NCBI GenBank assembly: GCA_016180645.1
Contig: JACPAV010000025.1
Span: 3,884 to 67,883, forward strand
Length of the DNA: 64,000 bases
From: Nitrospirota bacterium
Lineage (GTDB): Bacteria; JACPQY01
Reading direction: 5' to 3'
Part shown: piece by piece, positions 660 through 40,600 of the stretch
Layout of the letters: each line of letters begins with the position of its first letter
Numbering within the stretch: the first letter of the stretch is position 1
Notes under the pieces: model-generated
The model's database searches: none
The model's input: only the letters and a program-made list of their open reading frames with translations
What the model was told of the DNA's origin: nothing
Made by a program: the position numbers and the translations under genes

Positions 660-1009
660 ATCCTGTCGCCCAACGCCTTCTTCCAAAACAGTAACCCGCC
701 ACGTCTCGTGAACGTGACGCTGGGCGGGTAACCACGTCTTCGTGATTCCCGCCCTCCCCTCTCAAAGCTATGAAGCAGTCGTACAAACGCTCAGCCCTCG
801 CACGCCCCGCGGAGAGGTCTGTGCTGAAGGAGCACCATGCGCGCCCCCTGCGCTCCGCTCCGGGGACGACGGAAGGAATCGTTATGGGGTCCCTGCGTCG
901 AGAGAAGACTCCCCCTTGGGGAAGGAGATAGTCCCGGGCGCGCGCGGGAGACGTGTTATGATTTGCGAACACAACTGGACATGAAAGAGAGCATGAAAGG
1001 AAGGCAAGG
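660..1009. other. intergenic stretch with R1 repeat and leader of next gene
   Basis: No convincing gene. The stretch holds a full R1 copy (842-900) and ends in a purine-rich leader with a good Shine-Dalgarno (AGGAAGGCAAGG) for the gene at 1010. Short open frames here are created by the repeat. Confidence 0.6.
842..900 (+). repeat. R1 interspersed repeat, intergenic copy
   Basis: It reads CCCCCTGCGCTCCGCTCC, then GGGGACGACGGAAGGAATCG, then TTATGGGGTCCCTGCGTCG. It matches the R1 pattern seen about 15 times up to 39.1 kb and is nearly identical to the copy at 19433. Confidence 0.85.
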
Positions 1010-1837
1010 ATGAACACAGAGGATCAGAATCGCGAGGAGGCTGCGAAGGAATACTACTCCGTGGTCCGGATCAAGATCCTCGAAGGGGAGGAGCGGGACG
1101 TCCGGACGGAAATCCTGAACGACTTGAAGCGGCCGCCGAGCGTCCGGGTCTTTACAGGGCTCCCGGACCCGGCGCTCATGACCGTGCTTCGTGAGCCGGA
1201 TCCGCGGATGGAGATCACGCACATGAACGGAGAAGCCGAACCGCTCGATCTCATCGACTACCACCACATCTACTGCGGCCGGTGTGGCCGGTGCGGGTCG
1301 TTCTACGGTCAGTGGGGAGCGTACGACGACTCCGCGTGGACCCGCGCCGGGGCGTTCAGCATCGTACAGATGCAGAATGTCCTCGAAGGCGGGAAGCGGG
1401 CCGTTGCGGATCTGCCGGGCGTCGGATGCCCGTGCTTCGACGGAGAGGCCGACAGGTGGGCGGAAGCATCTCCGGAGGGAATGGTGAGACGTGCGGGCAC
1501 GTACTACGGGGCGGTCTTGGAGGAGATGGGAGAGAAGGAGGGGGCGGCGGCCGTGCGGGACTTGGGTGGCGCCGGTGAAGGGAAGGGGATGGATATCGAG
1601 GCGTGGCGGCTGAGCGCGGGTCCGTATCGGGAGTGGTGGGTCGGTCGATCGGCCGCGGCCGTGCGGCACATTCCGTGGGGGTGGTGGATGCGTCTGATCA
1701 CCATGAAGCTGCCGGCGACGGCGAAAATGGCCTTGGCCATGAAGAGCAAGGCGGAGGCCGCAGGAGTGGATGCGGAGACCCTCCTGTCGCGGGCCACGGA
1801 AAACGCGAGAATCAGGCGGCGGAGAGTGACCCATTAA
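1010..1837 (+). CDS. hypothetical protein with Cys-rich motif
   Basis: A 275-residue cytoplasmic protein of unknown function. A compact cysteine cluster C-X2-C-X2-C at residues ~89-95 (YCGRCGRCGSFYG) and a second C-X-C at ~140-142 (GVGCPCF) suggest binding of a metal or Fe-S cluster; that is inference from spacing. The C-terminal third is rich in Trp and basic residues (WWMRLITMKLPATAKMA). A strong Shine-Dalgarno supports the start. It is followed by a DUF3150-like gene and a radical SAM gene on the same strand, but a 250-base structured gap separates it from the first. Confidence 0.8.
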   Translation: MNTEDQNREEAAKEYYSVVRIKILEGEERDVRTEILNDLKRPPSVRVFTGLPDPALMTVLREPDPRMEITHMNGEAEPLDLIDYHHIYCGRCGRCGSFYGQWGAYDDSAWTRAGAFSIVQMQNVLEGGKRAVADLPGVGCPCFDGEADRWAEASPEGMVRRAGTYYGAVLEEMGEKEGAAAVRDLGGAGEGKGMDIEAWRLSAGPYREWWVGRSAAAVRHIPWGWWMRLITMKLPATAKMALAMKSKAEAAGVDAETLLSRATENARIRRRRVTH

Positions 1838-1873
1838 GTGCAACCGACGAAGTATCCGCGCGCGGGGCAGTGA

Positions 1874-1938
1874 ACCCCGTTAGAGGCCCGCACGAGAAAA
1901 AGATACCCCGTGGCAAACCACGGGGCCTCTAACGGGGT
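1874..1938. repeat. nested palindrome, 16-bp arms
   Basis: ACCCCGTTAGAGGCCC at 1874-1889 is perfectly complementary to 1923-1938. Inside lies a second hairpin (CCCCGTGG, loop caaa, CCACGGGG at 1906-1925) that shares three bases with the outer right arm, so inner and outer folds partly exclude each other. It lies 150 bases upstream of the next gene and has no T-tract. Confidence 0.75.
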
Positions 1939-2090: not shown

Positions 2091-3422
2091 ATGAGCAAAG
2101 ACGAATTGGGGCAGGCGGCTACAGCGGGAGCGACGGCCGGTGCGCCGGCGGAGCGGGACGGGCGACGCAAGGACCGTATCACCCCTCTGATCGTCGTCCC
2201 TGAAGCGGAGCGGAAGGGGAGCGGGGGGGCCAGGCGGCAGGAGCAGGTGTTTCAGGAAGGGTGGCTCGTGGCGGCGTCGATCGGCTACTACCGGGGGCAG
2301 GAGTCGGTCTCCCCGGAGGATCTGGGCCTCGAATGGAAAGGAGTTCCGGACTACATCCGGGATCTGGGACATGTCCGCGTGCTTCCCGAGGGGGCACTGA
2401 GGCCGCTGACGCGGGTGGAAGGGGATACGCGCCGGCAGGTGGGTGGCCTATCGCTACGGTTTCCGCTGACGCACGCGAGGTACGTTCCGGTGAGAGCCAT
2501 CCCGATGCTGGAAACGGCGGTAGAGGAGTGCGAGAAGCGGTTCTGGGCGGGGATCGAGGTCTTTGCATCGGGTCTTCCCGGCTACAGGGAGGAAATGATA
2601 CCGGTATTCCGAAAGGGTGCGGAAGTGATCCTTGTGGAGAGGGCGTCGTTGATTGCCGAGAAGGAAGGATTCGTGGAGCGGTACGTCGAGCGGATGGAGA
2701 AGCTGTTCCCGACGGCGGAGGTGATCGAGAAGCGGGCTTGGTTCAAGATCGACATGTTCCAGGTCCAGATCCCAAGCCGCATGGTGGTGGATCGACTGAT
2801 TGAGGAAGGGACGTTGACGGGACTCGGGGAACAGATCTCGCAGCGGCTTCAGGGGTCACTCATGAAACTGGACTTCTTCACGAAGAGCATGGAGATCCAG
2901 CTCGCCGCCCGGACGATGGGGATCGTGCGCCGGATTACGGGGGCGGCGAGACGGGGACAGGGAGTGGGGCGACGCGACACGATGAGGCTCCTCGAGAAGG
3001 CGGATCGGCTGGACGTGCTGAACGCGCCCGGCTTGGAGGCGGTCCGGAGGGTCATCGAGGTCGTGCGGGGGAGAGCGGACGGCACGAGGCTGGTGCGGAA
3101 CGTGGTTCGGGAGATGAGCGAGGCGCTCGTGGAGGAAGAAGCGTGGCTTGGGATGAAGCTGGGAGGTGTGGAGGATCTGCCGAGTTTTCTGCGGGATGAC
3201 GTGGTGAGCGAGGTGCGGAGCGTTCTTGGGGAGGTTGAGGAGGACGGCGAGGAAGGTGGGAAGACATCTGCGGCTGTGGGGGGAGCAGAGGAGGAAGGCG
3301 ACGACGAGGGATCGGCGGAGGGCGAGCATGTGGCGAATGAATCCGAGGGCACGCTGGAAGAGACGGGCGGGGGAGGATCCAATGGGGAGTGGGGAGCCGG
3401 GGATGGGGCGCGAGGAGAATGA
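2091..3422 (+). CDS. DUF3150-like protein
   Basis: 443 residues. The region around residues 60-190 (WLVAASIGYYRGQESVSPEDLGL, then a central ALRPL segment and YREEMIPVF) follows the layout I remember for DUF3150, a family of unknown function found in phages and mobile elements near AAA and VWA proteins; this is recall, not a search. Residues ~360-443 are an acidic, Gly/Glu-rich low-complexity tail. The start is well supported by AAAGGAGG seven bases upstream. No AAA or VWA partner is visible in the window. The tail could instead be a degenerate extension caused by downstream repeat insertion. Confidence 0.65.
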   Translation: MSKDELGQAATAGATAGAPAERDGRRKDRITPLIVVPEAERKGSGGARRQEQVFQEGWLVAASIGYYRGQESVSPEDLGLEWKGVPDYIRDLGHVRVLPEGALRPLTRVEGDTRRQVGGLSLRFPLTHARYVPVRAIPMLETAVEECEKRFWAGIEVFASGLPGYREEMIPVFRKGAEVILVERASLIAEKEGFVERYVERMEKLFPTAEVIEKRAWFKIDMFQVQIPSRMVVDRLIEEGTLTGLGEQISQRLQGSLMKLDFFTKSMEIQLAARTMGIVRRITGAARRGQGVGRRDTMRLLEKADRLDVLNAPGLEAVRRVIEVVRGRADGTRLVRNVVREMSEALVEEEAWLGMKLGGVEDLPSFLRDDVVSEVRSVLGEVEEDGEEGGKTSAAVGGAEEEGDDEGSAEGEHVANESEGTLEETGGGGSNGEWGAGDGARGE

Positions 3423-3443: not shown

Positions 3444-3502
3444 GACGACGCCAAGACCCCATGGTTTTTCATCTCGTCGTCCGTGGAGCGGAGTGGAGGG
3501 GA
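3444..3502 (-). repeat. R1 interspersed repeat, reverse copy
   Basis: The minus strand reads the R1 pattern (CCCCTCCACTCCGCTCCACG, GACGACGAGATGAAAAACCA, TGGGGTCTTGGCGTCG). It lies directly after the DUF3150-like gene. Confidence 0.8.
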
Positions 3503-3563
3503 TGATCGAAAGGGGAATGGTTCACAAACCCGTTGTCTTGAGGGTGAGCGTTGCGTGAGGTGT

Positions 3564-3630
3564 TCATCCCACCACCTGAAACGGGCGCGCGAGCGCCCCG
3601 TTCCGGGTCGGTTTCAGGTGGTGGGATCAT
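3564..3630. repeat. R2 palindrome overlapping start of radical SAM gene
   Basis: The arms CATCCCACCACCTGAAAC and GTTTCAGGTGGTGGGAT are inverted copies around a GC-rich loop. The right arm contains GGTGGTGGG and runs straight into the ATG at 3629, so it holds the only SD-like sequence of the next gene. Confidence 0.8.
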
Positions 3631-4561
3631 GATCGTCAATCTCGTTCAGGTTGATGGGAAGCTTCCGAATCTGGCACTCATGAAGCTGTCGGCCTGGCAT
3701 AAGAGTCGGGGGGACGGGGTTCGACTGAACTCCATGGGGAGGGCCGACCGGACGTACGTGTCGTCGGTGTTCTCCTGGTCCGAGGCGAAGAGACGCAGGT
3801 GGACAGCGTTGTATCCGGATGCGATTACGGGGGGATCGGGATTCGATCCCGCCGTACGGCTGCCGGAGGAGATTCAATGGATGAAACCGGATTTCGACCT
3901 CTTTCCCGAGTACCCGGCCTGTGTGGTCTACTCGTATGAGCGGTGCCCAAGGAAGTGCGGATTTTGCGTGGTGCCGGGACAAAACATCCCGGAATACCAC
4001 TCGAGCGTTCGGCGGCTTTGGGACGGGAAGCGGAGGATCATGGAGTTCCTGGACAACAACCCCATGGCGGACCCGGAGTGGCCCAAGACGGTTCGAGAAC
4101 TTCAGGAGCTGGATCTGTCTTCGCGTTGGCACGGGCTGGATATTCGTTTGGTTTCTGAAACAAACGCTCTCCTTCTGGCGGGTCTAAGGATCGACGGATA
4201 CCTGCACTTTGCCTTTGATCATGTCGGGATGGCGAAGTTGGTCGGTCGGAATGTGGATCTGCTGTGTGGGGCGGGGATCGGCAAGCGGCGGCTGATGTTC
4301 TATGTGCTGACGAACTACGACTCGACGTTCGAGGAGGATGTGGAACGGGTGGAGATCCTGCGTTTGTTGGGCGTATTGCCGTACGTGATGGTCTACGAGA
4401 AGGGGCAGGCCCCTGCAAGGGCGCGGGCGTTTCAGCGGTGGGTCAACCGCAGGTATTACAATTTCATCCCGTGGGGGGAATATCGGCATGGCAGGTGGCC
4501 CGAAACAGAGCGCCGGGAGGGTGAGCAGTTGTCGATGTACGTTCAGGAGCCGGCGGTATGA
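3629..4561 (+). CDS. radical SAM protein, phage/mobile-element type
   Basis: 310 residues from the ATG at 3629. The C-X3-C-X2-C motif of radical SAM enzymes is at residues 106-113 (YERCPRKCGFCVV), so a 4Fe-4S cluster and S-adenosylmethionine chemistry are expected. The N-terminal ~90 residues (MIVNLVQVDGKLPNLALMKL) resemble the short receiver-like half seen in B12-independent relatives. Substrate unknown. A longer reading from 3551 would translate the upstream palindrome, so I prefer the internal start, whose ribosome-binding region lies in the right arm of R2. It follows the Cys-motif and DUF3150-like genes and may act with them. Confidence 0.8.
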   Translation: MIVNLVQVDGKLPNLALMKLSAWHKSRGDGVRLNSMGRADRTYVSSVFSWSEAKRRRWTALYPDAITGGSGFDPAVRLPEEIQWMKPDFDLFPEYPACVVYSYERCPRKCGFCVVPGQNIPEYHSSVRRLWDGKRRIMEFLDNNPMADPEWPKTVRELQELDLSSRWHGLDIRLVSETNALLLAGLRIDGYLHFAFDHVGMAKLVGRNVDLLCGAGIGKRRLMFYVLTNYDSTFEEDVERVEILRLLGVLPYVMVYEKGQAPARARAFQRWVNRRYYNFIPWGEYRHGRWPETERREGEQLSMYVQEPAV

Positions 4562-4985
4562 AGTTGGGGCGTCTTGAATGGGTATGTAGGGGGGGGTGCA
4601 ATGATTCCGAAAGCGGCAGCAAGGGGTGAACGCAAGTGACGGGTGGTAGAGCGGAAAGGTGTCTGATGGACGAGAGTTCATGCCTGAAGGCCGTTTACGC
4701 GGAGATGGTACGCCGGGGTGTCAGAGTTGGGCGAAGGAACTCACGGATATGGCAGTACTCAACACCAGCCATGGATGGTGCGGCGCCCCGCCCTCCGGGC
4801 CGACTACCATGGGAGGCCACTGAAGGCTGGGTGCCACCTTTGCGGAGCGCCCAAGGTGACGGGTATGCTGGAATACGTGAGGTCAGATCTGCCTTTCCGA
4901 CCCGGTCGTTTTGAGCGAGCGTCATTATTTACCATTGTGAACCTACCCTGAGTGGTGTAGGTTCCGGGATGGATACGTTTTCGTA
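4562..4985. other. intergenic stretch, no secure gene
   Basis: Two overlapping short open frames (from 4636 and 4718) are possible; the second ends with a CXXC pair (CHLCGAPK) but neither has a clear ribosome-binding site. A small hairpin (AACCTAC / GTAGGTT, about 4942-4965) precedes the restriction gene. Confidence 0.4.
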
Positions 4986-7973
4986 ATGGGCATGGCACGG
5001 CAGGTAGTCATCGACAACCCGATTCTGAATTCACCTTATGAGGAACCGTGCCGACATTTTCGATTCACCGACGAGGGGATCAGCAGTGAAATCGTAGAGT
5101 CCCGCCGGGTAAGCTCCTATTTCGTACCGATTCCCCGGCCAAAGAAACGGGGGAAACAGCTCTCCTTCGAGACGGAATGGACCCAAGATCGAATCGAGGA
5201 GAATAGGTTCATAAACCGTGTTCGCGAGCGGGTCCGGATCTGGCGCGGCGGGGGCCACATGGGGGTAACCAGAACCAGCACCGAACTTCTTCAATACTGG
5301 CGGCGTCAGGAAAGAATCCGTCGGTTGTTTTTCTGTCAAATCGAAGCCATTGAGACCGCTATCTACGTGATGGAGGTAGCGGGGAGATACGGAGATGCCT
5401 GGATAGAGAACGAACTCCAGGAACAGAATCGACTTTCGAATCCGCTTCTCCACCGGATGGCATTCAAGATGGCGACCGGCAGCGGCAAGACCGTCCTCAT
5501 GGCGATGCTGATTGCGTGGCACGTTCTGAACAAAGTTTCCAACCCGCAGGACAGTCGTTTTTCCGACACGTTCCTGGTCGTGACGCCCGGGATCACCATC
5601 CGCGACCGACTGCGCGTGCTCCTGCCCAGCGACCCCAGCAATTATTACCGTGAACACGATCTCGTGCCCATCGGACTCATGGACACCTTGGGCCGAGCGA
5701 AGATCATCATTACCAATTTTCATGCCCTCAAGCCCCGCGCATTGGTAGAGGCGGGAAAGCTCACAAGAAGTATTCTGCTGCGAAACAACGGCGATGCGTT
5801 CACGGAAACTCCTGATCAAATGGTTCGTCGAGTCTGTCGGGAACTGGGCAACAAGAAAAACATTGTTGTTCTGAACGACGAGGCCCATCACTGCTACAGA
5901 CGAAAGCCCGATGGTGAAGGTGAGCAACTCTCAGGCGAAGAGCGCCGCGAAGCCGAGAAAAGGGAGGAAGAAGCCCGGATCTGGATCTCGGGTCTTGAAG
6001 CCGTGAAAGCCAAGATCGGTTTGAAGGTCGTCTACGACCTCTCGGCCACCCCCTTCTTCCTTCGGGGATCTAGCTATCCGGAAGGCACGCTCTACCCGTG
6101 GGTGATATCCGACTTTTCGCTCATCGATGCCATCGAATCCGGTATCGTAAAAGTTCCACGGGTACCGGTGGCGGACGACTCCATGACGGGCGACCAGCCG
6201 ACTTATCGGGACCTGTGGTTCAGGATTCGGGATCAGTTGCCAAAGAAAGGCCGGGGACGGCAGGCGGTCGAAGGAGAACCCAACATCCCGACGGAACTCG
6301 AGGGTGCCTTGCAGAGTCTGTACGGGAACTATGAGAAGCGGTACAAACGATGGGAGGGAAGTGCGAATTCTCAGGGGGACGGACGGACGCCGCCCGTTTT
6401 CATTGTCGTCTGCAACAACACGAATGTGTCCAAGCTGATCTATGACTACATCGCCGGTTGGGAAAAGAAACTTCCCGATGGATCCACGGTGGCTGTGCCC
6501 GGAAAGCTCCCCATATTCAGCAACGAATTGAATGGCCGATGGTCCGATCGCCCAAAGACAATCTTGATCGACAGTGAGGAGTTGGAGTCCGGAGACGCGC
6601 TCAGTCCGGAATTCAAGAAAATTGCCGCTCGTGAAATTGAGGAGTTCAAGTCCGAATATAGGCGCAGGTTTCCGGGGCGGGATGTCGATGCCTTGACCGA
6701 GCAGGATCTCCTGCGGGAGGTGATGAATACGGTAGGGAAGGCCGGAAAACTGGGCGAGCAGATCAGATGCGTCGTCTCCGTCTCCATGCTCACGGAAGGT
6801 TGGGATGCGAACACCGTCACGCATATTCTGGGCGTCCGTGCTTTTGGGACCCAGCTTCTTTGCGAGCAGGTGGTCGGTCGCGGCCTGCGCCGCATGAATT
6901 ACACTCTGGACAACACAGGGAAATTCTCCCCGGAATACGCGGAAGTGTACGGTGTGCCTTTTTCATTCATTCCGTGCGCGGGGACAACCGAAGGCCCCAC
7001 GGACACCCCTCAACCTACACGAGTCAGGGCTCTTGAAGATCGGCTTGAACTTGAAATCACGTTCCCTCGACTTCTCGGTTACCGATATGACATTGAACGG
7101 GAGAGGATCTCCGCGCGCTTCACGGAAGAATCTCAGTTGGCGATATCTACAAAAGACATCCCTACGCGTACGGAGAACGCGCCAATCGTCGGAGAGACAA
7201 CGCTTCACACACTCTACGGGCTGAAAGAGAAGCGCGAGCAGGAAATTGACTTCAAGCTCGCACAACAGGTTCTGGAACGATACTTTCGTGATGAGGAGGG
7301 CCAACCGAAAATCTGGTGCTTTCCTGAACTGCTTCAGATTGCGCGCGAGTGGCGCCAAACCTGCCTGACCTGCAAGGACAATACGTTCCCCCAGATGCTG
7401 CTCCTGATCGAACCCGCCCACAACGCCTCAGAACGGATTTACCGTGCAATCGTGGCCACAGCCAATGGAAACAAGACATTGAAGCCCATTCTTCGGCCCT
7501 ACGACACCGTCGGCTCAACGCGCTATGTTGACTTCACGACCCTTCGGGACACCTACCTAACCAATCCCCGGAAGTCGCATGTCTCGCACGTGGTGCTGGA
7601 CAGCGATTGGGAGGCAAAACTCGCGCAGAGTTTGGAAGACATGCCGGAAGTCGTCTGCTACGTCAAGAACGACACCCACCAGCCCGGTTTCAGTATTCCC
7701 TACACCTTGAGCGGGGAGGAGCATCCGTACATTCCGGACTTCGTGATCCGGTTTAGCGATGGACAGGGCGAAGGTGACCTTCTGAACCTTATCCTGGAAG
7801 TCACCGGCGAGCGGAAGAAGGACAAGGAAGCGAAGGTGTCCACCGCGAAGAACCTGTGGATTCCCGCCGTCAATAACCACGGAGGATATGGGCGCTGGGC
7901 GTTTATCGAGATTTCGGATCCTTGGAACGCGCAGAATTTGATTCGGGCGGAAGTGAAATCGAGGCGCGGATGA
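4986..7973 (+). CDS. type III-like restriction enzyme, helicase-nuclease subunit
   Basis: 995 residues, a DEAH superfamily 2 helicase fused to a nuclease, like the BPTD_3080-type restriction endonucleases (recognised from motif layout). Walker A is MATGSGKTV near residue 165, the DEAH-like box NDEAHHCY near 297, motif III LSATPFF near 352, and motif VI QVVGRGLRR near 630. The C-terminal ~120 residues carry IPDFVIRF and LNLILEVTG, fitting a PD-(D/E)xK nuclease. It should cut unmodified DNA with the methyltransferase at 9569. Its TGA overlaps the ATG of the next gene by four bases, so translation is coupled. Base composition is lower in GC than the flanking surface operon and no R1 repeat enters this island, which suggests separate acquisition. 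Confidence 0.9.
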   Translation: MGMARQVVIDNPILNSPYEEPCRHFRFTDEGISSEIVESRRVSSYFVPIPRPKKRGKQLSFETEWTQDRIEENRFINRVRERVRIWRGGGHMGVTRTSTELLQYWRRQERIRRLFFCQIEAIETAIYVMEVAGRYGDAWIENELQEQNRLSNPLLHRMAFKMATGSGKTVLMAMLIAWHVLNKVSNPQDSRFSDTFLVVTPGITIRDRLRVLLPSDPSNYYREHDLVPIGLMDTLGRAKIIITNFHALKPRALVEAGKLTRSILLRNNGDAFTETPDQMVRRVCRELGNKKNIVVLNDEAHHCYRRKPDGEGEQLSGEERREAEKREEEARIWISGLEAVKAKIGLKVVYDLSATPFFLRGSSYPEGTLYPWVISDFSLIDAIESGIVKVPRVPVADDSMTGDQPTYRDLWFRIRDQLPKKGRGRQAVEGEPNIPTELEGALQSLYGNYEKRYKRWEGSANSQGDGRTPPVFIVVCNNTNVSKLIYDYIAGWEKKLPDGSTVAVPGKLPIFSNELNGRWSDRPKTILIDSEELESGDALSPEFKKIAAREIEEFKSEYRRRFPGRDVDALTEQDLLREVMNTVGKAGKLGEQIRCVVSVSMLTEGWDANTVTHILGVRAFGTQLLCEQVVGRGLRRMNYTLDNTGKFSPEYAEVYGVPFSFIPCAGTTEGPTDTPQPTRVRALEDRLELEITFPRLLGYRYDIERERISARFTEESQLAISTKDIPTRTENAPIVGETTLHTLYGLKEKREQEIDFKLAQQVLERYFRDEEGQPKIWCFPELLQIAREWRQTCLTCKDNTFPQMLLLIEPAHNASERIYRAIVATANGNKTLKPILRPYDTVGSTRYVDFTTLRDTYLTNPRKSHVSHVVLDSDWEAKLAQSLEDMPEVVCYVKNDTHQPGFSIPYTLSGEEHPYIPDFVIRFSDGQGEGDLLNLILEVTGERKKDKEAKVSTAKNLWIPAVNNHGGYGRWAFIEISDPWNAQNLIRAEVKSRRG

Positions 7974-8803
7974 GATCGTTTTCGTTCGACGAAATCGGGT
8001 ACTGGACTGAAATCAAGCTCGAAATCATTCGAAAGTATGCCGTAGAGTATTCCAAGATTCTGGCCGCTCAACGACCGATTCGGCGGCACGTCTACATAGA
8101 TGCCTTTGCGGGGGCGGGACACCACATGTCGAAACGATCCGGCCGGCTTGTTGCCGGTAGCCCGCTTAATGCACTCGACATTCAACCCCCTTTCAGCGAG
8201 TTACATTTCATTGACCTCCACGGCGGAAAGGCTGGTGCTCTCCGGAAACTGGCGGGTGATCGGAATGACGTTTTCGTGCACGAGGAGGACGCGAACACGG
8301 TTCTTTTGAGGGATTGTTTCAGGCGATGTCGGTTCGAGGACTACAGCCGGGGGCTGTGCATTCTCGACCCGTATAGCATTGCCGTAGATTGGAAGATCCT
8401 CGCGACGGCGGGCAAGATGAAATCGGTTGAAGTGTTCTACAGTTTCATGATCATGGATGCGAACATGAACGTCCTGTGGACAAATCCCGATAAGGTTGCC
8501 AAGAATCAGGCGATCCGGCTGGATGCGGTGTGGGGCGACCGATCTTGGCGTTCGGTCGCCTATCCCAAATCCCGTGGCCTATTCGGGGAGATGGAGGAGA
8601 AAGCGGGAAATGAAGAAATAGCTGAGGCATTCAGGAAACGCTTGATTGATGTAGCCGGTTTCAAATTCGCACCGAAACCCATGCCAATGCGAAACAGCAA
8701 GGGAGCCGTGGTTTACTACCTTTACTTTGCCTCCCCAAACAGGACAGGGGCCAAAATCGTGAAGAGCATCTTTGATAAGTACCGGTCGATGGGCATCCGC
8801 TGA
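7970..8803 (+). CDS. tcmP: three-Cys-motif partner protein TcmP
   Basis: 277 residues. The N-terminus (FDEIGYWTEIKLEIIRKYA) and the following YIDAFAGAG segment are typical of TcmP, a protein that travels with the three-Cys-motif family in mobile defence clusters and has a Rossmann-like, methyltransferase-type glycine segment. The biochemical role is not established. ATG at 7970 overlaps the restriction gene stop (ATGA) and its own TGA overlaps the next ATG (TGATG), so the three genes are one translational unit. Confidence 0.88.
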   Translation: MRSFSFDEIGYWTEIKLEIIRKYAVEYSKILAAQRPIRRHVYIDAFAGAGHHMSKRSGRLVAGSPLNALDIQPPFSELHFIDLHGGKAGALRKLAGDRNDVFVHEEDANTVLLRDCFRRCRFEDYSRGLCILDPYSIAVDWKILATAGKMKSVEVFYSFMIMDANMNVLWTNPDKVAKNQAIRLDAVWGDRSWRSVAYPKSRGLFGEMEEKAGNEEIAEAFRKRLIDVAGFKFAPKPMPMRNSKGAVVYYLYFASPNRTGAKIVKSIFDKYRSMGIR

Positions 8804-9555
8804 TGGCCACCAAATCCTCAATCGAATGGACGGAATCGACGTGGAACCCCCTCACGGGGTGCAGCAAGACGAGTCCAGGATGCGACAATTGCTACGCGGA
8901 GCGGATGGCGCGGCGACTTCACGCGATGGGGCAGCCGCATTACGCGAAGGGATTCGAACTTTCGCTCCACGAGGACGCCCTGGGATTGCCGCTCCGATGG
9001 AAAATGCCACAAACGATCTTCGTCAATTCGATGAGCGATCTCTTCCACCAGGACGTACCCGTCGCGTTCATCCAGAAAGTGTTTGACGCGATGCGACGGG
9101 CTTCTTGGCACCGGTTTCAAATCCTGACGAAACGGTCCCGCAGGCTCTTGGAGTTGAGTCCCGATCTACCTTGGTCGCCCAACATCTGGATGGGCGTGAG
9201 CGTCGAGAAATCCAGTTACGGCTTCAGAGTCGATCACCTGCGTCGGACTGGGGCACACACCAAATTCCTCTCGTTGGAACCGCTTCTTGGCCCGTTTCCA
9301 GCTCTTGATTTGGAGGCCATCGACTGGGTGATTGTGGGTGGAGAGTCGGGGCCGGGGGCACGGCCAATGGACCCGGCTTGGGTTATCGAAGTCCGCGATC
9401 AATGCCGTGCGTCCGGCGTGGCATTTTTCTTCAAGCAGTGGGGAGGTGTCTGGAAGAAGAAGACCGGTCGCCTGCTCGAAGGCAGAACATGGGACGAAAT
9501 GCCCAGGGTCCACATGCCTCCAATCGATACAGGGCGTGAATTCGCATGGGCGTGA
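8803..9555 (+). CDS. three-Cys-motif / phage Gp37-Gp68 family protein
   Basis: 250 residues. Cysteines 20, 27 and 30 (CSKTSPGCDNC) give the three-Cys motif of the Gp37/Gp68 (DUF5131) family, which resembles radical SAM proteins; a 4Fe-4S cluster is likely but unproved here. Other family signatures are IFVNSMSDLFH, FQILTKR, WMGVSVE and GGESGPGARPM. It is the usual partner of TcmP, which directly precedes it. Inside a restriction-modification island the pair may modify DNA or a nucleotide, which is inference. Confidence 0.9.
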   Translation: MATKSSIEWTESTWNPLTGCSKTSPGCDNCYAERMARRLHAMGQPHYAKGFELSLHEDALGLPLRWKMPQTIFVNSMSDLFHQDVPVAFIQKVFDAMRRASWHRFQILTKRSRRLLELSPDLPWSPNIWMGVSVEKSSYGFRVDHLRRTGAHTKFLSLEPLLGPFPALDLEAIDWVIVGGESGPGARPMDPAWVIEVRDQCRASGVAFFFKQWGGVWKKKTGRLLEGRTWDEMPRVHMPPIDTGREFAWA

Positions 9556-9568
9556 CGGAAGATTCTCT

Positions 9569-12184: not shown

Positions 12185-12200
12185 ACCGAAGCCGTTTCTT

Positions 12201-12956: not shown

Positions 12957-13062
12957 CAGAAACCACACGTAGCAATCCGTTTCAGGCGCATCCACCATGC
13001 TGATACGGTTGCTGACGCAAATCGCTCTACTCGCGAGTCCAATGCAGTTGTGGGGCTGGGGC

Positions 13063-13578: not shown

Positions 13579-13753
13579 GTCGCGTCACGCTATCAGATCG
13601 GTGGAGGATACTCAATTTGAAGTCTACCGGGAGCCTTTTTCACGGTTTAGAATGACAGACCTTCCCACAGGGCTTTCCCTGCCCCCGCCGCCCGGTTCCT
13701 TAGGGTGGTAGGCAGGGCGCGGTACGGGGACGGTTCCGCAGTCACGGATTGTC

Positions 13754-13856
13754 GTCCCCTCCGCTCCGCTGCACGGACGACTCCCTTCGGGGGCGGCGGG
13801 CGGAAGGGCATGGGGATCAGCGCCGCGAGATGAAGAATCATGGGGGCCTTGCGTCG
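13754..13856 (+). repeat. R1 repeat interrupted by ~45 bp
   Basis: The left half (CCCCTCCGCTCCGCTGCACG, 13756 on) and the right half (GAGATGAAGAATCATGGGGG, CCTTGCGTCG) of R1 are separated by extra GC-rich sequence, so this copy carries an internal insertion. Confidence 0.75.
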
Positions 13857-13912: not shown

Positions 13913-13973
13913 GTGTGCATGATTTCGCCTCTATAACGGGGTGCCGTGGCATGGACTTGCGAGAAGAGGGGGC

Positions 13974-29944: not shown

Positions 29945-30190
29945 ATGTCCAAGAAATCGAACGGTGATGCAACCCCGGAGGCTCGCGAAGCGCTCACCGG
30001 CCGGCTTGATCTCCCCCGTCGAGATGTCCTTTACTTTTCCATTACCCATATCTCCTCCCTCCAATTACCTCCCCTCCTGACGCGGCAAAGCCGCGTTGAG
30101 AATCGACCATCGCTTTTCACTGATCCCACCCCCTGCTATTGCCCACCTGTGGTCGTCTTGAGGATCGTGCCGCCTAACCCTACCGCGTAG
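29945..30190 (+). CDS. possible small protein
   Basis: 81 residues beginning MSKKSNGDATPEAREALTGR. CAGGAGG lies eight bases upstream, and TTGGAC...TAGGAT with a 16-base spacer is a possible promoter. Its 3' end overlaps the end of the convergent lipoprotein gene, so it may be shorter or non-functional. Confidence 0.35.
   Translation: MSKKSNGDATPEAREALTGRLDLPRRDVLYFSITHISSLQLPPLLTRQSRVENRPSLFTDPTPCYCPPVVVLRIVPPNPTA
30087..30107. terminator. hairpin between convergent genes
   Basis: ACGCGGC, loop AAA, GCCGCGT: a seven-base stem shortly downstream of the lipoprotein gene stop. There is no clear T-tract, so termination is only suggested. Confidence 0.4.
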
Positions 30191-32569: not shown

Positions 32570-32649
32570 CATGATCCCACCACCTGCAATCCGCCTGCGG
32601 CGGACTCGGAAAAGAGGCGCTTCTGCGCCTGTTGCAGGTGGTGGGATGA
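32570..32649. repeat. R2 palindrome
   Basis: Arms CATGATCCCACCACCTGCAA and TTGCAGGTGGTGGGATGATG. The loop contains two further small palindromes (CCGCCTGCGGCGG and AGGCGCTTCTGCGCCT). Confidence 0.82.
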
Positions 32650-32650
32650 T

Positions 32651-32788
32651 GAGGAACCCCTACCATCGGTTCCTCGTCGAAGGGGATGACCTCGCGGTGA
32701 GGTGAGCGGAAGGAATTCAGCAAGGCATCTTGTCTGCCATGAGCCTCGGGGACTCTTTCAAGATTCGCACCCGAGCGTCGCGCGGGCG
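32651..32788 (+). repeat. R6 intergenic repeat, copy b
   Basis: It shares GGAACCCCTACCATCGGTTC, GGTGAGGTGA and TCAAGATTCGCACCCGAGCG in the same order as copy a at 26809, and runs into the glycogen phosphorylase remnant. Confidence 0.6.
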
Positions 32789-33574: not shown

Positions 33575-33608
33575 TGGAAATGAATTGTTATGGGGTTCCT
33601 GCGTCGTG
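33575..33608 (+). repeat. R1 repeat, right half only
   Basis: GAAATGAATTGTTATGGGGT then TCCTGCGTCG matches the right half of the R1 subtype at 842; the left half is degraded. It joins R4 copy b directly, as in the 13.8-kb copy. Confidence 0.65.
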
Positions 33609-33660
33609 GCTTGTTTCACCTGAAACAAACGCGGAGGAATCGGGGCGGGGTGTGTGTGAA
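33609..33660 (+). repeat. R4 repeat with parS-like palindrome, second copy
   Basis: CTTGTTTCACCTGAAACAAA then CGCGGAGGAATCGGGG repeats the 13858 copy, including TGTTTCACCTGAAACA and a GTGTGNGTGAAT tail. Confidence 0.65.
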
Positions 33661-33772
33661 TAGACTCATCGTTAGAGAGGGTTCGGACGGTTGGTTGGCA
33701 CCGGATTGCAATAGGGAAGGCGTGACGAATGAAGAACAAACGATTGCGGTCAGAAAGAGAGGTCAGACAGTC

Positions 33773-34075
33773 ATGAACAAGAACAGCAAGGACGACAAAA
33801 CAAAGAGGGCCCGGATGCCTTTTCCATTCCCGATGCTGGGCGGAAGCCAGTCGGGCGTATCGGATCTCGAGGAGCTTTACGTCGACGCCCTCGCGGAGGG
33901 CGGCATGTGCGAAGCACCGGAGCAGGATCGAACGGTGGAAATGCTGTCGATCGGCGGAACGACGGTGGTCCGGCGGGTGGGTCGGCGGTCGAGAGTCATC
34001 GTCCCCTCCGCTCCGCTCCACGGACGACGAGATGAAGAATCATGGGAACCTTACATCGAGGTCGATCTGGCGTGA
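33773..34075 (+). CDS. small hypothetical protein at head of T4SS operon
   Basis: 100 residues beginning MNKNSKDDKTKRARMPFPFP. It has no signal peptide or membrane segment, so it is not TraL although it occupies the TraL position before TraE. The last ~25 residues (APLHGRRDEESWEPYIEVDL) are R1-encoded. Start at 33773 is the most sensible ATG, but no strong Shine-Dalgarno is visible. Confidence 0.5.
   Translation: MNKNSKDDKTKRARMPFPFPMLGGSQSGVSDLEELYVDALAEGGMCEAPEQDRTVEMLSIGGTTVVRRVGRRSRVIVPSAPLHGRRDEESWEPYIEVDLA
34001..34058 (+). repeat. R1 repeat at C-terminus of small T4SS gene
   Basis: CCCCTCCGCTCCGCTCCACG then GACGACGAGATGAAGAATCA and TGGGAACCTTACATCG, read as SAPLHGRRDEESWEPYIE, the same frame as the copy at 14241. 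Confidence 0.85.
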
Positions 34076-34093
34076 GGACGAACTTGGGATCCC

Positions 34094-34158
34094 TGCTCGT
34101 TGCGCTCCGTGGTGGAAAGGCCGCGGGCGAGATGAAGCCCCATGGGGTCTCTGCGCCG
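34094..34158 (+). repeat. degenerate R1 repeat at start of TraE-like gene
   Basis: GCTCGTTGCGCTCCGTGG, then GAGATGAAGCCCCATGGGGT and CTCTGCGCCG keep the R1 order with many changes. The ATG used for the TraE-like gene (34132) lies inside it, where R1 has GAGATGAAGAA. Confidence 0.6.
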
Positions 34159-34749
34159 AAACCGGCCCGGAAAAGCGCGGGGCGCTTCTTCGAGGTCTGG
34201 GGCGAGGCGGAGACGCGGTACGAGCACATGCGAGGACTCACCATTCTTTCCCTTCTGGTCGCGCTTGCGGCCGTGGGCCTGGCAGCCGTGCGGAAAGACC
34301 GGGTCTATGTGGTCCCGGGAGCTGCGGGGGTGACCAGACTCGGCGACGAATCGGCGGGACCGGCCTATGCGGTCGACGTGGCGAGGAGTTTTCTCACACA
34401 GTATGCGTCCTATCGGCCCGAGACGATCGAGGGGAACGTCCGATCGGCGCGGACGTACTTGGAGGAGCATCTCCTGGAACCTTTCGACAAGGCGACGATC
34501 CGCCAGGTGGAGCGGGCGAAGAGTCTGTCGCTGTCGCAGCATTTCTGGATCCGGCAGGAAACGGTGGAGCCGACGGGAAAAGATTACAAAGTGGTTCTGG
34601 TGGTGTGGCAGGAACTATGGAGTCCGCGGGGCAAGGAGTGGGCCGGGACGTACCGGTACGAGATCAGTTTGAAGAAGGTGCCGGTCGCCGGACGGGATTT
34701 CCGGGGACTGGCGATCGTCAACATCGCCCAGCGACAGGAGGCGGCATGA
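34132..34749 (+). CDS. traE: TraE-like (VirB8-type) conjugation protein
   Basis: 205 residues. A short cytoplasmic N-terminus and one membrane helix (LTILSLLVALAAVGLAAV) are followed by RVYVVPG and a periplasmic domain (VARSFLTQYASYRPETIEGN, YRYEISLKKVPVAGRD), the plan of F/SXT TraE in the inner-membrane part of a type IV secretion system. Identification rests on this plan and on the following TraK- and TraB-like genes. The start ATG lies inside a degenerate R1 repeat; MRGLTI at about 34228 is an alternative. Its TGA overlaps the next ATG. Confidence 0.75.
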   Translation: MKPHGVSAPKPARKSAGRFFEVWGEAETRYEHMRGLTILSLLVALAAVGLAAVRKDRVYVVPGAAGVTRLGDESAGPAYAVDVARSFLTQYASYRPETIEGNVRSARTYLEEHLLEPFDKATIRQVERAKSLSLSQHFWIRQETVEPTGKDYKVVLVVWQELWSPRGKEWAGTYRYEISLKKVPVAGRDFRGLAIVNIAQRQEAA

Positions 34750-35657
34750 ACGGGATGAGTGTCTGGCGGCGGATCCGGTGGGACGTGATCTTAGCCGTGG
34801 GCCTGGCGGCAGGGCTGACGCGGGGAGCGGCGTTCGCAGTGGATCTCTCGGTACAGCCGTGGAGCCCGGGCAGGACGATCTACGTTCCTCTTCAGGTGGG
34901 CAATCCGATGAGCGTGAAATTTCCCGAAACCCCGAAGCAGTGCGCCGTCCACGACGAACAGCAGCTCACGGTGGAGTATTTCGGGAGGGAGGCCATCTTC
35001 AAGGCGCTCAGTTCTTTCAGCGCGAGCATCTTCTGCATGGACGTGAAGCAGAACACCTACGCGCTCAAAATGGAAACGACCCCCTACGCGGGACCCACGA
35101 TGATCCAGATCGTCCCGGAGGAGGGTGCGCCGGTCGGCGCAAAAAGCGATGGGGGCCACGCGTTCTACGGACCCCTCAAGAGACTGCTCCTCGCCATGTA
35201 CCATCAGCAGCCGCTTGCGGGCTACGAGATCGAGGTGACGAGCCGGGTGATCGTGGGATCGGAACCGGGATCGCTCCATGTTCGGCAGGTCATGCGGTAC
35301 GTCTCCGACGTGAGCAACCTGATCGGATACGTATTGGAAATTGAGAACCGTCTGCAGGGCCAGGCGCAGGCCGTGGCACCGAGGATGCTCAAGGTTCCGG
35401 GGAAGGTCGCGGCGGGCGTACGGGACATGTATCTCGCGCCGGCGGGGCCGGCGCCGACGCCCCCTCCGCTGCGCTCCGGGGACGATGAGTGGAAGAATCA
35501 CGGGGTCTTTGCATCGCCGGAGGCGTACCTGGGTTATCCGACGAAGACGGTGGCGTGGATGGTGGTGGACCGCCGGGCGCTGCCGGAGGGACTCGACAAG
35601 GGGACGGACACGCTGCCGTTAACGGTGAATCCCGAGACGCGCAAGGACGGAGACTAG
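34746..35657 (+). CDS. traK: TraK-like (VirB9/secretin-type) conjugation protein
   Basis: 303 residues with a signal peptide (VILAVGLAAGLTRGAAFA). The mature protein starts VDLSVQPWSPGRTIYVPLQV and has the beta-rich TraK layout; TraK forms the outer-membrane ring of F-type T4SS with TraB and TraV. The ATG overlaps the TraE stop (ATGA). An R1 repeat is translated near residue 240 (TPPPLRSGDDEWKNHGVFAS) and the frame resumes with AYLGYPTKTVAWMVVDRRAL, so the insertion is tolerated or the region is a loop. Confidence 0.72.
   Translation: MNGMSVWRRIRWDVILAVGLAAGLTRGAAFAVDLSVQPWSPGRTIYVPLQVGNPMSVKFPETPKQCAVHDEQQLTVEYFGREAIFKALSSFSASIFCMDVKQNTYALKMETTPYAGPTMIQIVPEEGAPVGAKSDGGHAFYGPLKRLLLAMYHQQPLAGYEIEVTSRVIVGSEPGSLHVRQVMRYVSDVSNLIGYVLEIENRLQGQAQAVAPRMLKVPGKVAAGVRDMYLAPAGPAPTPPPLRSGDDEWKNHGVFASPEAYLGYPTKTVAWMVVDRRALPEGLDKGTDTLPLTVNPETRKDGD
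35459..35517 (+). repeat. R1 repeat, in frame in TraK-like gene
   Basis: CCCCCTCCGCTGCGCTCCGG then GGACGATGAGTGGAAGAATC and ACGGGGTCTTTGCATCG, in the commonest reading frame. Confidence 0.87.
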
Positions 35658-35684: not shown

Positions 35685-37220
35685 GTGGAAGAAGGAGAAA
35701 GGGGCAAGACGGGTGGCGACGCGGGATCGATGCCGGGATCCTATGATTCTTCTCCTCATCGTCTCCGGAGAGAAGCGGAGGGGGCGCCGGTCGGTTCGGG
35801 AGCGGAGGATGGAACCGAGATTAGCGGGTCGTGCGCTGTCGGAGAGAGCAACCCGGGACCTGCGTCGGTGGCGGCGCAGGATCCCCATAACTATTCCCAT
35901 CGCCGTCCCCGGAGCAACGCAGAGTGGACGGAAAGAATGGACCTCACACTGAAAACCCACGGGCTTTCACGCCGGCAGGCGGTCGTGGGCGCAGGTCTTG
36001 TGCTGGCGGCCCTTATGGCGATCATCACGGCCGGGCGGGCAACCGGAGAGGCGCCGCCACTGGACGTTCTGAAGGAGGGCGTCGTAGGCGGTGCCGAGGC
36101 GCAGCCTACGGGGAAGGCTGTCCAAGCCGCGGTGAATTTGCCGCCCGTGCTGGGCGGCGCGGAGGGAATTGAGGGAGAGACGCCGGCGAAGCCGGAGGAG
36201 GATCCGGTAGCACGGTGGCGAGCGATGGGCGCCGAGGCTGAAGCGGCGGGAGGCGAGCAGAGGGCGGTAGTAAGAGCCGGAAGTGGGTTCGACTCCGCTC
36301 AGAATGCGGATGCGCTGATCAACCGGGAGAAAATGAAGGATATGGAGCGACGCCTTGAGGAGTCGGAGGAGTCGAGGCACCAGCTGGAACTCTCCCTCAT
36401 GAAGGAGATCGCCGAGCTGAAGAACAAGGCGGAGGGTGGGCGATCCATCACAACCATTTCAGGGAGCGGCGGGGCGTCCGGTTCGGAAGGCCACGCAGGC
36501 CACGAGGGCATGGCGGAGGCGCGACCGGTCGGGAGAGGGAAAATTATTGTGAACCCGAGCGCGGGCGCGGCTTCGGACGAGAGCGGCGTGTACTTTCCGA
36601 GCGGAAGTTTCGCGGCAGGCGTGCTGCTGACGGGTGCGCTCGCCCCGGATACGGATCAGCAGCTGCCGTACCCGCTGCTCGTGCGTCTGCAGGGTTCGTT
36701 CGTGGGACCGAACCGATTCAAGATTCCGGCGCACGGGTGTTTCGCGCTGGGGCGGGCGAGCGGCCGGGCGGTGGCGAGGCGCGCGGAGATCCAGGTGTTT
36801 CAGATGAGCTGCGTCTATGAGGACGGGACGTCGATGGACCGCAAGATCAACGGCTGGGTGTCGGGCGAAGACGGCATCCTGGGGGTGCCGGGTATTGTGG
36901 AGAACCATGACGGCCTGTACATCGCGGGGACGATTGCCGCCCGGACCGCGCAGGCGTTTTCGCAGGCGATTGCGGCGTCGCAGCTGACGACGCAGCTCAC
37001 GCCGCTGGGCGGCGCTCAGCAGAAGGTGGACGGAAGTCTCGTGTCTTACGGGTTTTCGAGCGCGGGCGCGGGTTTCTTCGACTCGCTCGCAAAGATTATG
37101 GAAGAAAGGATCCGTCGCAACGTTCCGGTCATCAGAGTGGAACCGGGAAAGGAGATTCATGTCGTACTGGCTCAAGGTTTCGAGGGGATGCCCCCCGATC
37201 TGGCTCTTCCTGTGCACTAG
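35685..37220 (+). CDS. traB: TraB-like (VirB10-type) conjugation protein
   Basis: 511 residues from a GTG with a good Shine-Dalgarno (AGGAAGGAAA). A membrane helix (VVGAGLVLAALMAIITAG) is followed by a coiled coil (EKMKDMERRLEESEESRHQL) and the TraB/VirB10 beta domain: YFPSGSFAAGVLLTGALAP, FKIPAHGCFALGRASG, INGWVSGEDGILGVPGIV. TraB spans both membranes in the T4SS channel. Before the helix two reverse R1 copies are translated in frame, so the cytoplasmic tail is repeat-derived; the ATG at 35937 is an alternative start that avoids them. The next gene starts 62 bases before its stop. Confidence 0.85.
   Translation: MEEGERGKTGGDAGSMPGSYDSSPHRLRREAEGAPVGSGAEDGTEISGSCAVGESNPGPASVAAQDPHNYSHRRPRSNAEWTERMDLTLKTHGLSRRQAVVGAGLVLAALMAIITAGRATGEAPPLDVLKEGVVGGAEAQPTGKAVQAAVNLPPVLGGAEGIEGETPAKPEEDPVARWRAMGAEAEAAGGEQRAVVRAGSGFDSAQNADALINREKMKDMERRLEESEESRHQLELSLMKEIAELKNKAEGGRSITTISGSGGASGSEGHAGHEGMAEARPVGRGKIIVNPSAGAASDESGVYFPSGSFAAGVLLTGALAPDTDQQLPYPLLVRLQGSFVGPNRFKIPAHGCFALGRASGRAVARRAEIQVFQMSCVYEDGTSMDRKINGWVSGEDGILGVPGIVENHDGLYIAGTIAARTAQAFSQAIAASQLTTQLTPLGGAQQKVDGSLVSYGFSSAGAGFFDSLAKIMEERIRRNVPVIRVEPGKEIHVVLAQGFEGMPPDLALPVH
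35736..35788 (-). repeat. R1 repeat, reverse, in TraB-like N-terminus
   Basis: The minus strand reads GCCCCCTCCGCTTCTCTCCG then GAGACGATGAGGAGAAGAAT and CATAGGATCC. The plus-strand gene translates it as SYDSSPHRLRREAEGAP. Confidence 0.75.
35871..35926 (-). repeat. R1 repeat, reverse, second copy in TraB-like N-terminus
   Basis: The minus strand reads CCACTCTGCGTTGCTCCGGG then GACGGCGATGGGAATAGTTA and TGGGGATCCTGCG, matching the 842 subtype. It is translated in the gene as PHNYSHRRPRSNAEW. Confidence 0.75.
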
Positions 37221-37608
37221 CCTGGCGCTCTCGGCGTCCGTCGGCTGTTCCGCGCGGGCGCGAATGAGGACGCTGGGCGAGACGTACCGGGAGGCCCTTT
37301 CGGAAGGGACGCGCAAAGAGGGGCGGGCTTACCTGGACCAACTCCAGGTGGAGCGCCCGGCCGGGTTTGCCGAGCCGTTTACGCCCGTGAGAAGGAGCGA
37401 GGAGAGCCAAGCGTACTGGGTCGAGCCGTATTTTGCCGGGGAGGACGAGGCGCACGACGGCCACTGGATGGTGATCATCGTGAAAGGGAGTACATGGAAT
37501 TCCGACCTGGTGCTGCAGAAGGGTCTGCTGGCGCTGCCGGGACCCACGATGCCGAAGCCTCCGAGAGCGATGGCGGACGAAGGGACGATGAACGGGGGCA
37601 TCAAGTAA
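37159..37608 (+). CDS. lipoprotein at TraV position of T4SS operon
   Basis: 149 residues. AAAGGAG six bases before the ATG fixes the start inside the TraB-like gene. The signal peptide ends in ALSASVGC, a usable lipobox. The segment SQAYWVEPYFAGEDEAHDGH followed by WMVIIVKGSTW resembles the C-terminal half of TraV-type lipoproteins, which form the outer-membrane ring with TraK and TraB. Order E-K-B-V matches F and SXT systems. The cysteines typical of TraV are absent, so the assignment is partly by position. Confidence 0.65.
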   Translation: MSYWLKVSRGCPPIWLFLCTSLALSASVGCSARARMRTLGETYREALSEGTRKEGRAYLDQLQVERPAGFAEPFTPVRRSEESQAYWVEPYFAGEDEAHDGHWMVIIVKGSTWNSDLVLQKGLLALPGPTMPKPPRAMADEGTMNGGIK

Positions 37609-37676
37609 GAGGTGAAGGCAAAGGTGAGAAGGCAAAAGTGGGCGAGGGAGAAAGCGAGAATATCAACGTGCAGGAC

Positions 37677-40600
37677 ATGAAGAATCTGAAGAAACGGAAG
37701 GGCGCTTGGGCAGGCTCACGACCTCATAAGGCGCTGAGTCAATCGAAGGGAGCGCAACCGAGCGGCGCCAGGACGGCACAGCCGTCCGGCCCTGCCTGCC
37801 GCGACGCCTCCGCGTCCTGCGGCGCAGGCAGGGACTCGCTGGACGCGACGAAGCGGGGCGTTCCCGTCTTGAGTTTCCTCCTGGCCGCGGCGGCGCTCTG
37901 CGGGACGGCGGCGTGCGCCCCGCCGGAGCCGGCGACGTACATCATCTATATCGAGGCGGAGAAGTCGCTCACGTCGGCGGTGGAGAGATTTGCGCCGGTG
38001 GCACGGATCGACCGGGGGGAGAGCGTGCTGGACGACGGCGTACCGGTGGGCTTCCAGATCGGCGAGGACGGCGCGTCGTATGTGTCGCTGGGATTCGAAG
38101 GTCGGCTTGGGAATGCGGAGGACCCGGTCACTCTGACGCTCCATGACCGGAGAGTGGATCTCATCGGCGTGAAGCTCATGCGGGCCAGGAACAGTGAGGG
38201 GGTCCTGACGCGGGACGGCGAGGCGACGGCGTTTCCCGATTCGGACGAGGACGGCGTGGAAAATCTCATCGAGGCGTATCTGGGGACGGATCCCTTCTCG
38301 AAAGGGCAAAGGCCGCCCGAGGACCAGGCGCAAAAGATTGCGGAGGATGTCTTTCCGGAACTGGCTTCTCAGCGAAAGGCGCGTAGCACCGGGAATACGG
38401 GAGGGGCTGGGGCCGGCGACCCCGGTGCGGGGGTCGATACGAAAATCACGACAAAACCTTCGAAGCCCGTGTCATCGGATGCCGTAACAATTCGGTTCAT
38501 CGCGGTGGGGAAGGCGGAGGGGGCGAGGTTGGAATGTTCGGTGGACGACGGTGCGTTTGGGGAGTGTGTCTCGCCGCTGACGCTTACGGGCCTCGCGGAA
38601 GGGCCGCACCGGTTGCGGGTCAGGGCGGTCGCCGGCGACGGCGAGGTGGATGCGACGCCGGCGGAGGCCGTCGTCGTCGTGGACCGCACGCCACCCGCGA
38701 CGAAAATCACGGGGACCCCATCGGGCGTGAAGAACGAGGGGAAAGTGTCTCTCCAGTTTGAGTCGACGGAGGCGGGGAGCGCATTCCTGTGTTCCGTGGA
38801 TCAGAGCCCGGTGCAGGCGTGTTCGCCCGGTCAGGGAGTTTCAGTCGGATCGGACGGCCGCCACACCATTCGGGTCTTCGCCATGGATGCCGCGGGAAAC
38901 CGGGATCCTGTAGGAGCGGAGGCGGTTGTGGATGTGGATCTGACGCCGCCGACGGTAAAGTGGCTTGCCGCGCCGGCCGCCGTGACGAACCGCACGGAGG
39001 TAACGGTGACGGCTGCCGCGGAGGACCGCGCGGGAGTCGCTGTGATCGAGTGCGCGGTGCGCGGTGCTGCCGAGAAGGATCAGTCGCCCCCTCCGCTGCG
39101 CTCCACGGACGACGAGATGAAGAATCATGGGGTCTTTACGTCGCCCCGGTGGGAGGCCTGCGGGTCGGGCATGATGGTCCGGGGACTGGCGGAGGGCGCC
39201 TTCGTGGCCATGACCCGGGCGAAGGATCGGGCGGGAAACGTGAGTGCCGTTCTCGAAACAGCTTTCATCGTGGACCTCACGGCGCCGGCCGTTCGCATCA
39301 AGGAGGGGCCGGCCGAGGTCAGCGCGATGAAGCAGGTGTCGTTCGTCCTGGAAGGCTCGGAGGATGTAGAGACCTTCCGCTGCGGAATGGACGAAGAGTG
39401 GTCGGCCTGCGGGGGTACCTGGAGCGTGCCGAGCGTGCCGGAGGGGCGCCACTTGGCGCAGGCCGAGGGCGTCGACAAGGCGGGTAACGTGGGCCGAAGC
39501 GAGGCGTACGCCTTTACGATCGATCGATCGCCGCCGGAGATCCGGGTCGTGTCCGGGCCGGTGGATGGGACCAACCAGTCGTCGGTTGTCTTTCGGATGG
39601 GGATTACAGATGCGCTTTCGGGTGGGGCAAGGCTCGAGTGTTCCGCGGACGGCGGGGCGTTCAGCGATTGCCTGGAAAAGGGCGTGACGTTTTCAAGCCT
39701 GACGACCGGAGCGCACGTGCTCGCCGTGAGGGCGGCGGATGGAGCGGGGAATGCGGCGGCAAGCAAATTTACGTTTGTTGTGGACCGGACGGCGCCGACG
39801 GTGACGGCCTCCGTGGCGGCCGGCTGGCTCAAGTCGCCGGGGGCGGTGATGTTCTCGGCGGCCGACGACAGCGGCGTCGCCCCGGCGGTCGACTACTGTT
39901 TCGCTCTGGGGGCAGGGTCCTGTGTGCCGTCGGTTCGCGCGGTCGATGGAGTGGGAGAGATAAGCTGCGAGGCCGGGGCGATCTGCGAGGGAAACGTGCA
40001 TTTCACGGCGGTGGACCGGGCGGGGAACCGCTCGGAGGTTGTGCGCGTAAGCGTCAAGGTGGATGCGCAGGGGCCTATGATCGGGGGGGATGTCGCGTTC
40101 ACGATGATGGGGACGCGAGGCGCGAGTCTGAGCGCGCGATTCGATGACGCGGGTGTAGGCGAAGTGAAAGACTGTCTTCTTGAGTTTGCGGACTCCGCGG
40201 GCGTGACGAGTCAAACGAAAGCGGCGGTGGGTGGAGTGTGTTCGGTCTCGCGCGCATGCGAAAGAAAAGGACCACTCGTCTTGGGTGTCGTGGCGCTCGA
40301 TGCGGTAGGGAACGGATCGGCCCTGGTGGAAAGGACGATGACCTGCGATTCGGCGCCGCCCGCGACAAGTATTACGTTTGGGCCGGACGTGAAGGAGTCC
40401 CCCGGGAGGTTCATCGACGGCGGGCCCGGGTTCACGACGAGACGCTACCCGTTCGCGGTGACGGACGGGGACGGTGTGGGGCCACGGGAGGTGCGCTACT
40501 GGGTGACGGGCATGAGCGGGGAGGCGAGCTGCTTGTGGACGAGCCCGGGAGGCTGCGGTTTCGAGGTTGCGTGTTTGGGTTCGGTTTGCCTCGGAACGGT

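Follow-up and report, generated by a model that had tools for sequence, protein, structure and literature searches.

Introduction

Short structured repeats without genes of their own are known from several groups of organisms. Rickettsia palindromic elements (RPEs) are dispersed, structured, non-autonomous repeats that occupy a large number of unrelated protein genes in frame, dnaE and tRNA-modification genes among them, and the host proteins apparently remain functional (PMC10969869, PMC3767692). Repetitive extragenic palindromic sequences (REPs) have intragenic copies in Opitutus, Rickettsia and Thioalkalivibrio, and repair genes such as dnaE2 and uvrA are among the hosts in some species (PMC3733652). 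Double-hairpin, or repetitive hairpin, elements of fungal and sponge mitochondria are dispersed, presumed to be mobile without genes of their own, and occasionally found in frame (PMC2800124). Here, a repeat named R1 was analyzed in a 64,000-nucleotide stretch of DNA (positions 3884–67883 of contig C25; hereafter the window) and throughout the genome to which it belongs, an assembly of 4.72 Mb in 65 contigs from an uncultured groundwater-type bacterium. An original prediction made from the letters of the window had described R1 as a repeat that invades genes in frame and behaves like RPEs. We consider that R1 is a mobile, non-autonomous double hairpin, moved in trans, tolerated in frame in genes and filtered by selection, and we give this reading a probability of about 80%.

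Results

Copies of R1 were searched with a covariance model built from 33 of them. In the window, 15 copies in both orientations were found at E<0.01, in agreement with the predicted number of about 15 on both strands. The three words first noticed, beginning CCCC, ACGG and TCAT, occurred 16, 6 and 11 times with up to three mismatches, whereas shuffled sequences are expected to hold 0.98, 0.01 and 0.03. Genome-wide, 151 matches were listed, at least 145 of them at E≤0.01; this count is a lower bound, since only about 150 first-look candidates were scored. A same-family relative carries six copies, of which at least one lies in frame within a gene (locus L042), and among 58 other genomes none was found in 57 and a single weak match in one. 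R1 matched no Rfam family, and searches of plasmid and viral collections gave no match and one 16-bit chance match.

The unit is 57 nt long (3×19; model columns 3–59) rather than the 58 bp first estimated, because nested copies fix its borders, some of them permitting no other register. Two copies identical at 57/57 positions have unrelated flanks. Several copies hold a second R1, or a short form of 45 nt, exactly at GGACGA^YGA, and another nested group has the insertion at CTTCGG^GGACGA; identical boundaries recur at one position. Inserts of 45, 57 and 102 nt, all multiples of three, occur inside and outside genes. Head-to-tail tandems lie on contigs C2, C3 and C13. No target duplication was found at empty or nested sites, the insertion flanks show a weak preference for CG^C, and the two ends of R1 are not inverted repeats of one another.

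The unit contains two hairpins, A (YCCCC..GGGG) and B (CGRYG..CRYCG), with stems of 4 and 5 bp and loops of 13 and 24 nt. Covariation in the two hairpins amounted to 75 double-change cells, compared with a mean of 31 after shuffling; none of 500 shuffles reached 75, and slid registers gave 6–22. At one of the pairs, 49 copies have A-U and 35 have G-C. In some copies other small palindromes occupy the apex of hairpin A; at C20:29589, C20:35826 and C40:15915 this place is taken by a TGGGCCTTGC...GCAAGGCCCA hairpin of about 30 nt or more. A palindrome of type GTTTGTTTCACCTGAAACAAAC was also seen directly 3' of R1 copies, as if inserted there (window 13859–13912 and 33608–33661; L020 from about 460).

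Hosts of R1 recognized by Pfam include TGT, Mfd (twice), an SDR dehydrogenase, MmgE/PrpD, GH31, a NifA/NtrC-type activator, an RND pump, an ImuB-like Y-family protein, a DnaE2-like polymerase, SufB/D, DnaJ, RadC and a TrbI-like protein, among others. Genes tgt and mfd have clean 57-nt empty sites in the same-family relative, whose TGT gene has exactly the sequence found in the public metagenome-assembled genome (MAG) 'Nitrospirae bacterium NC_groundwater_665_Ag_B-0.1um_64_68'. The codon alignment of TGT with this relative is exact (...ARRCK|19 residues|AA..), and the insert is absent from all 31 aligned homologues, namely the relative and 30 others from many phyla. Solved TGT chains are shorter at the insert position, and when host proteins are aligned with structurally solved homologues of the TGT, NifA and Y-family types, the extra segment appears as an insertion; RND and DnaE2 alignments break at or near it. 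In an AlphaFold2 model of TGT, residues 212–228, mostly insert, are predicted with pLDDT<50 and the rest mostly with >90, and the model superposes on Zymomonas mobilis TGT with a TMt of 0.95. Of the two inserts in Mfd, one is a clean 19-residue segment and the other, of 34 residues, corresponds to 57+45 nt, R1 being nested in a second element.

Two further features of these host genes were recorded. Both genes of an apparent single imuB-dnaE2 mutasome operon (L060:5753–9999) contain R1 or nested R1. In tgt (L049:15852–17114), an N-terminal extension at residues 15–42 is part of another dispersed family, for which over 25 additional protein-level matches were seen in the genome and about a dozen in the relative.

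Coding context was assessed for the 83 copies scored in about 440 kb of sequence read directly around copies, by use of a codon-phase model trained on long open reading frames (ORFs) and applied to both 240-nt flanks of each copy. Both flanks were best in one and the same phase for 42 of the 83 copies, against a chance level of about 1/6 and 65–71% at random genomic positions, so that the depletion of R1 from genes is only about 1.5-fold. In-gene copies occur in both orientations and use at least five of the six frames genome-wide, where at least three had been predicted. None of the 33 clearest in-gene copies has a stop codon in the used frame, although only 22.7 stop-free copies would be expected from the other copies. 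Frame −0, open in 94% of copies, is the only one that encodes a strongly hydrophobic stretch, and none of the 33 uses it (P=0.0004, or P=0.007 after correction for target-site phase; both values are approximate, given some dependence among the copies). Another two copies were assigned to frame −0, but they lie at the very start of their ORF and the assignment is doubtful. Avoidance of frame −0 is the strongest indication of translation of the inserts.

Within the window, the claim of at least eight in-frame copies holds clearly for seven. Copies at 14242–14298 (plus strand, frame +2) and 17385–17441 (plus, +0) lie in ORF 13941–19310; one at 20831–20887 (plus, +0) lies in the FG-GAP protein encoded at 19301–22480. 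The copy at 35460–35516 (plus, +0) lies in ORF 34032–35657, which has no Pfam match and had been called TraK-like, and a TrbI-like ORF (35685–37220) carries two reversed copies, at 35728–35784 and 35872–35928 (minus, frame −2 in both cases). The last is at 39087–39143 (plus, +0) in ORF 37494–42029, which encodes bacterial Ig-like domains. Two plus-strand copies near gene ends have an ambiguous placement: 23802–23858, near the C-terminal end of ORF 23223–23900, and 34002–34058, at the boundary of ORFs 33590–34075 and 34032–35657.

Others are found between genes or near gene starts. The intergenic copy at 844–900 (plus) is identical at 57/57 positions to one on contig C20; that at 2163–2219 (minus) falls at the very start of a DUF3150 ORF (2091–3422), or just upstream of its true start; that at 3446–3502 (minus) is apparently intergenic; and that at 19434–19490 (plus) lies near the start of ORF 19301–22480. 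The copy at 13755–13856 (plus) is split at GGACGA^CGA, where a short R1-like double hairpin of 45 bp (13781–13825) interrupts it. A right half only, at 33576–33606 (plus), adjoins the palindrome TTGTTTCACCTGAAACAA, and a degenerate plus-strand copy at 34096–34158 scores a weak 23 bits. As predicted, the covariance model (E<0.01) detected no copy in the restriction-modification (RM) island, the interval without R1 being 3505–13752, and none beyond 39143.

Other repeats and genes were noted in the window. Another inverted-repeat family with core ATCATCCCACCACCTG / CAGGTGGTGGGATGAT occurs at 3564–3632, 22474–22564, 26644–26673, 32611–32652, 50507–50583 and 52116–52216. Tandem protein repeats at 27260–28145 and 30143–30764 are of the kelch type (units of about 135–162 nt) and the BNR/YCF48 type (units of 126 nt), in proteins with MopE-like metal-binding motifs. 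A dense array of about 27 tRNA genes occupies the minus strand at 58463–63900, on a contig that also carries conjugation genes.

Discussion

Precise junctions, the absence of target duplication and hairpin covariation would be consistent with an enzyme that works on single strands in their folded form, the mode of action proposed for Y1 transposases at REPs and at the ends of IS200/IS605 elements. R1 is best read as a non-autonomous mobile double hairpin of 57 bp, which an enzyme encoded by the host or by a transposon probably mobilizes in trans, as folded single-stranded DNA. It joins precisely, without target duplication, at weakly preferred CG^C sites, and GGACGA^YGA makes R1 itself a strong insertion hotspot. 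Since the unit is 3×19 nt and mostly free of stops, insertion into a gene would usually just add about 19 residues, mainly hydrophilic. Selection would then purge copies that introduce a stop or a hydrophobic stretch, as well as those landing in a vital core, and the survivors would be passengers in surface loops and linkers. R1 is probably active now or was so recently, chiefly on the conjugative (plasmid- or ICE-like, that is, resembling an integrative and conjugative element) part of the genome. The sequence itself shows the exact borders, the empty sites, the number of copies, covariation, the frames used, nesting and density, whereas a single-stranded intermediate, an enzyme acting in trans, translation of the inserts and selection as the filter are inferences.

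Several points weigh against this reading. None of the seven Y1 transposase genes in the genome is at a locus flanked by R1, and their inverted repeats, where found, are unrelated to it. Single R1 copies fold no better than shuffled ones (mean z about 0), a strong thermodynamic palindrome thereby being unsupported, so that the case for a hairpin intermediate is made by covariation. The target preference is weak. The bases read one by one, about 9% of the genome, come from stretches picked for holding copies, and gene calls are based on codon statistics rather than on annotation or proteomics.

Candidate sources of mobility were sought in the genome. A transposase flanked by R1 halves was looked for in the 440 kb and at the seven Y1 loci, where only nested pieces and scattered halves appeared. 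No match to PF00078 (RVT_1) was found in the assembly, which is 97% complete, and reverse transcription, by a group II intron or another such enzyme, was rejected. Integron attC sites and CRISPR do not fit the orientation, spacing and in-gene location of R1. Two loci, L031 and L033, have Y1 tyrosine transposase genes with terminal inverted repeats beginning TGGGGTCAAG; the similarity of TGGGGTC in R1 to this transposon end, the best seen, is at chance level (P=0.13). At L031, two R1 copies lie on one side, well beyond the gene.

The alternative that fares best, possible though the less probable account, is to place R1 within the REP superfamily, as a divergent CGTC- or GTAG-tagged form whose mobility depends on RAYT-like Y1 tyrosine transposases. 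R1 shares with REPs its small structured form, the absence of target duplication and intragenic copies (PMC3733652). Seven Y1 genes are available, and on the bottom strand CGTC stands directly before hairpin A; however, its letters are partly paired in hairpin B. The stems (4 and 5 bp) and loops (13 and 24 nt) of R1 also differ from the 8–9 bp and 4–5 nt of CGTC REPs, the CCA tail is missing, no Y1 gene is flanked by R1, and the terminal similarity is at chance level.

The distribution of R1 is uneven. Contigs C20 and C25 together carry 44 of the 145 copies in 187 kb, as opposed to 101 in 4.53 Mb elsewhere, a roughly tenfold density, and when 57-nt copies were compared, all of those with more than 50/57 identity to another copy lay on these two contigs. 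Both have type IV secretion system genes (TraC/TraG, TraG/TraD-like, TrbI-like). One reading of this pattern is that R1 spreads with a conjugative replicon and has been selected there for a function, for example as a recombination, DNA-uptake or expression signal, with chromosomal copies as spill-over. We regard this as unlikely: copies lie in both orientations without regular spacing, many of them inside genes, the same contigs have R1-free stretches (window 39–64 kb; C20 1–20 kb), and chromosomal copies occur in housekeeping genes. Blocks without R1, the RM island among them, would seem to have arrived recently.

Much less probable still is that R1 is skipped or removes itself before protein is made. 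Hopping elements of some yeast mitochondria are gene inserts that are skipped or excised in this way, and R1 resembles them as a hairpin-bearing insert in many unrelated genes. But a skipped element need be neither a multiple of three nor stop-free, yet every one of the clearest in-gene copies is open, beyond expectation; moreover, the hydrophobic frame is avoided, the genome has no PF00078 match and R1 has no Rfam family. Finally, a conserved protein motif or linker domain, as the similar GDDEWKNHGVFAS peptide of many frame +0 copies might suggest, the outcome that the original prediction had named as refuting it, is excluded: in-gene copies occur in at least five frames and on both strands, roughly half of all copies lie outside clear gene contexts, and orthologues lack the segment precisely.

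A more tentative idea, which we hold to be rather doubtful, is that the body of R1 has been shaped for translation. The 3×19-nt format is kept in intergenic and nested copies, and a multiple of three also in the short 45-nt form; stops are few, the peptides are mostly hydrophilic, and self-nesting grows inserts in threes. If this were so, R1 would serve its lineage as a general source of new protein segments, beyond tolerated junk.

Mobile elements lying in frame within proteins are best known from Rickettsia, where reduced genomes and weak selection easily explain them. R1 shows the same behavior in a 4.7-Mb genome, with a differently built element, high density, exact empty sites and self-nesting. 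It is therefore another system in which to study how protein sequence arises from short mobile DNA, whether the encoded peptide is under selection, and which enzyme moves small hairpin elements devoid of their own transposase. For annotation, an extra segment of about 19 residues in a conserved enzyme of this lineage should not be taken for a domain.

Compared with described elements, R1 has the in-frame insertion in unrelated protein-coding genes that characterizes RPEs, and the predicted likeness to them is borne out in behavior. It does not extend to size and architecture, RPEs being, by their description, palindromes of about 100–150 bp while R1 has 57 bp and two short hairpins, and the likeness is thus one of analogy rather than membership. 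R1 is also GC-rich, lacks an Rfam match, has a fixed internal nesting site and lives in a host related to a Nitrospirae-labelled MAG. With mitochondrial double-hairpin elements it shares dispersal and two adjacent conserved hairpins; those elements, however, are organellar, mostly intergenic or in rRNA, and differ in base composition and host. Bacterial miniature inverted-repeat transposable elements such as RUP, NEMIS, ERIC and Nezha are likewise small, non-autonomous and moved in trans, but have terminal inverted repeats and usually target duplications, neither of which R1 has. Like GTAG and CGTC REPs and REPINs, R1 is a short hairpin repeat with copies within repair genes. REPs, on the other hand, are mostly intergenic, with stems of 5–13 bp (GTAG) or 8–9 bp (CGTC) and CCA-type tails, and GTAG REPs are tied to RAYT genes, whereas R1 has no GTAG tag, stems of other sizes and no RAYT link, and genes hold about half of the copies sampled. 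R1 is closest in behavior to RPEs and intragenic REPs, yet its size, stems, tail and lack of an associated enzyme speak against placing it in either family.

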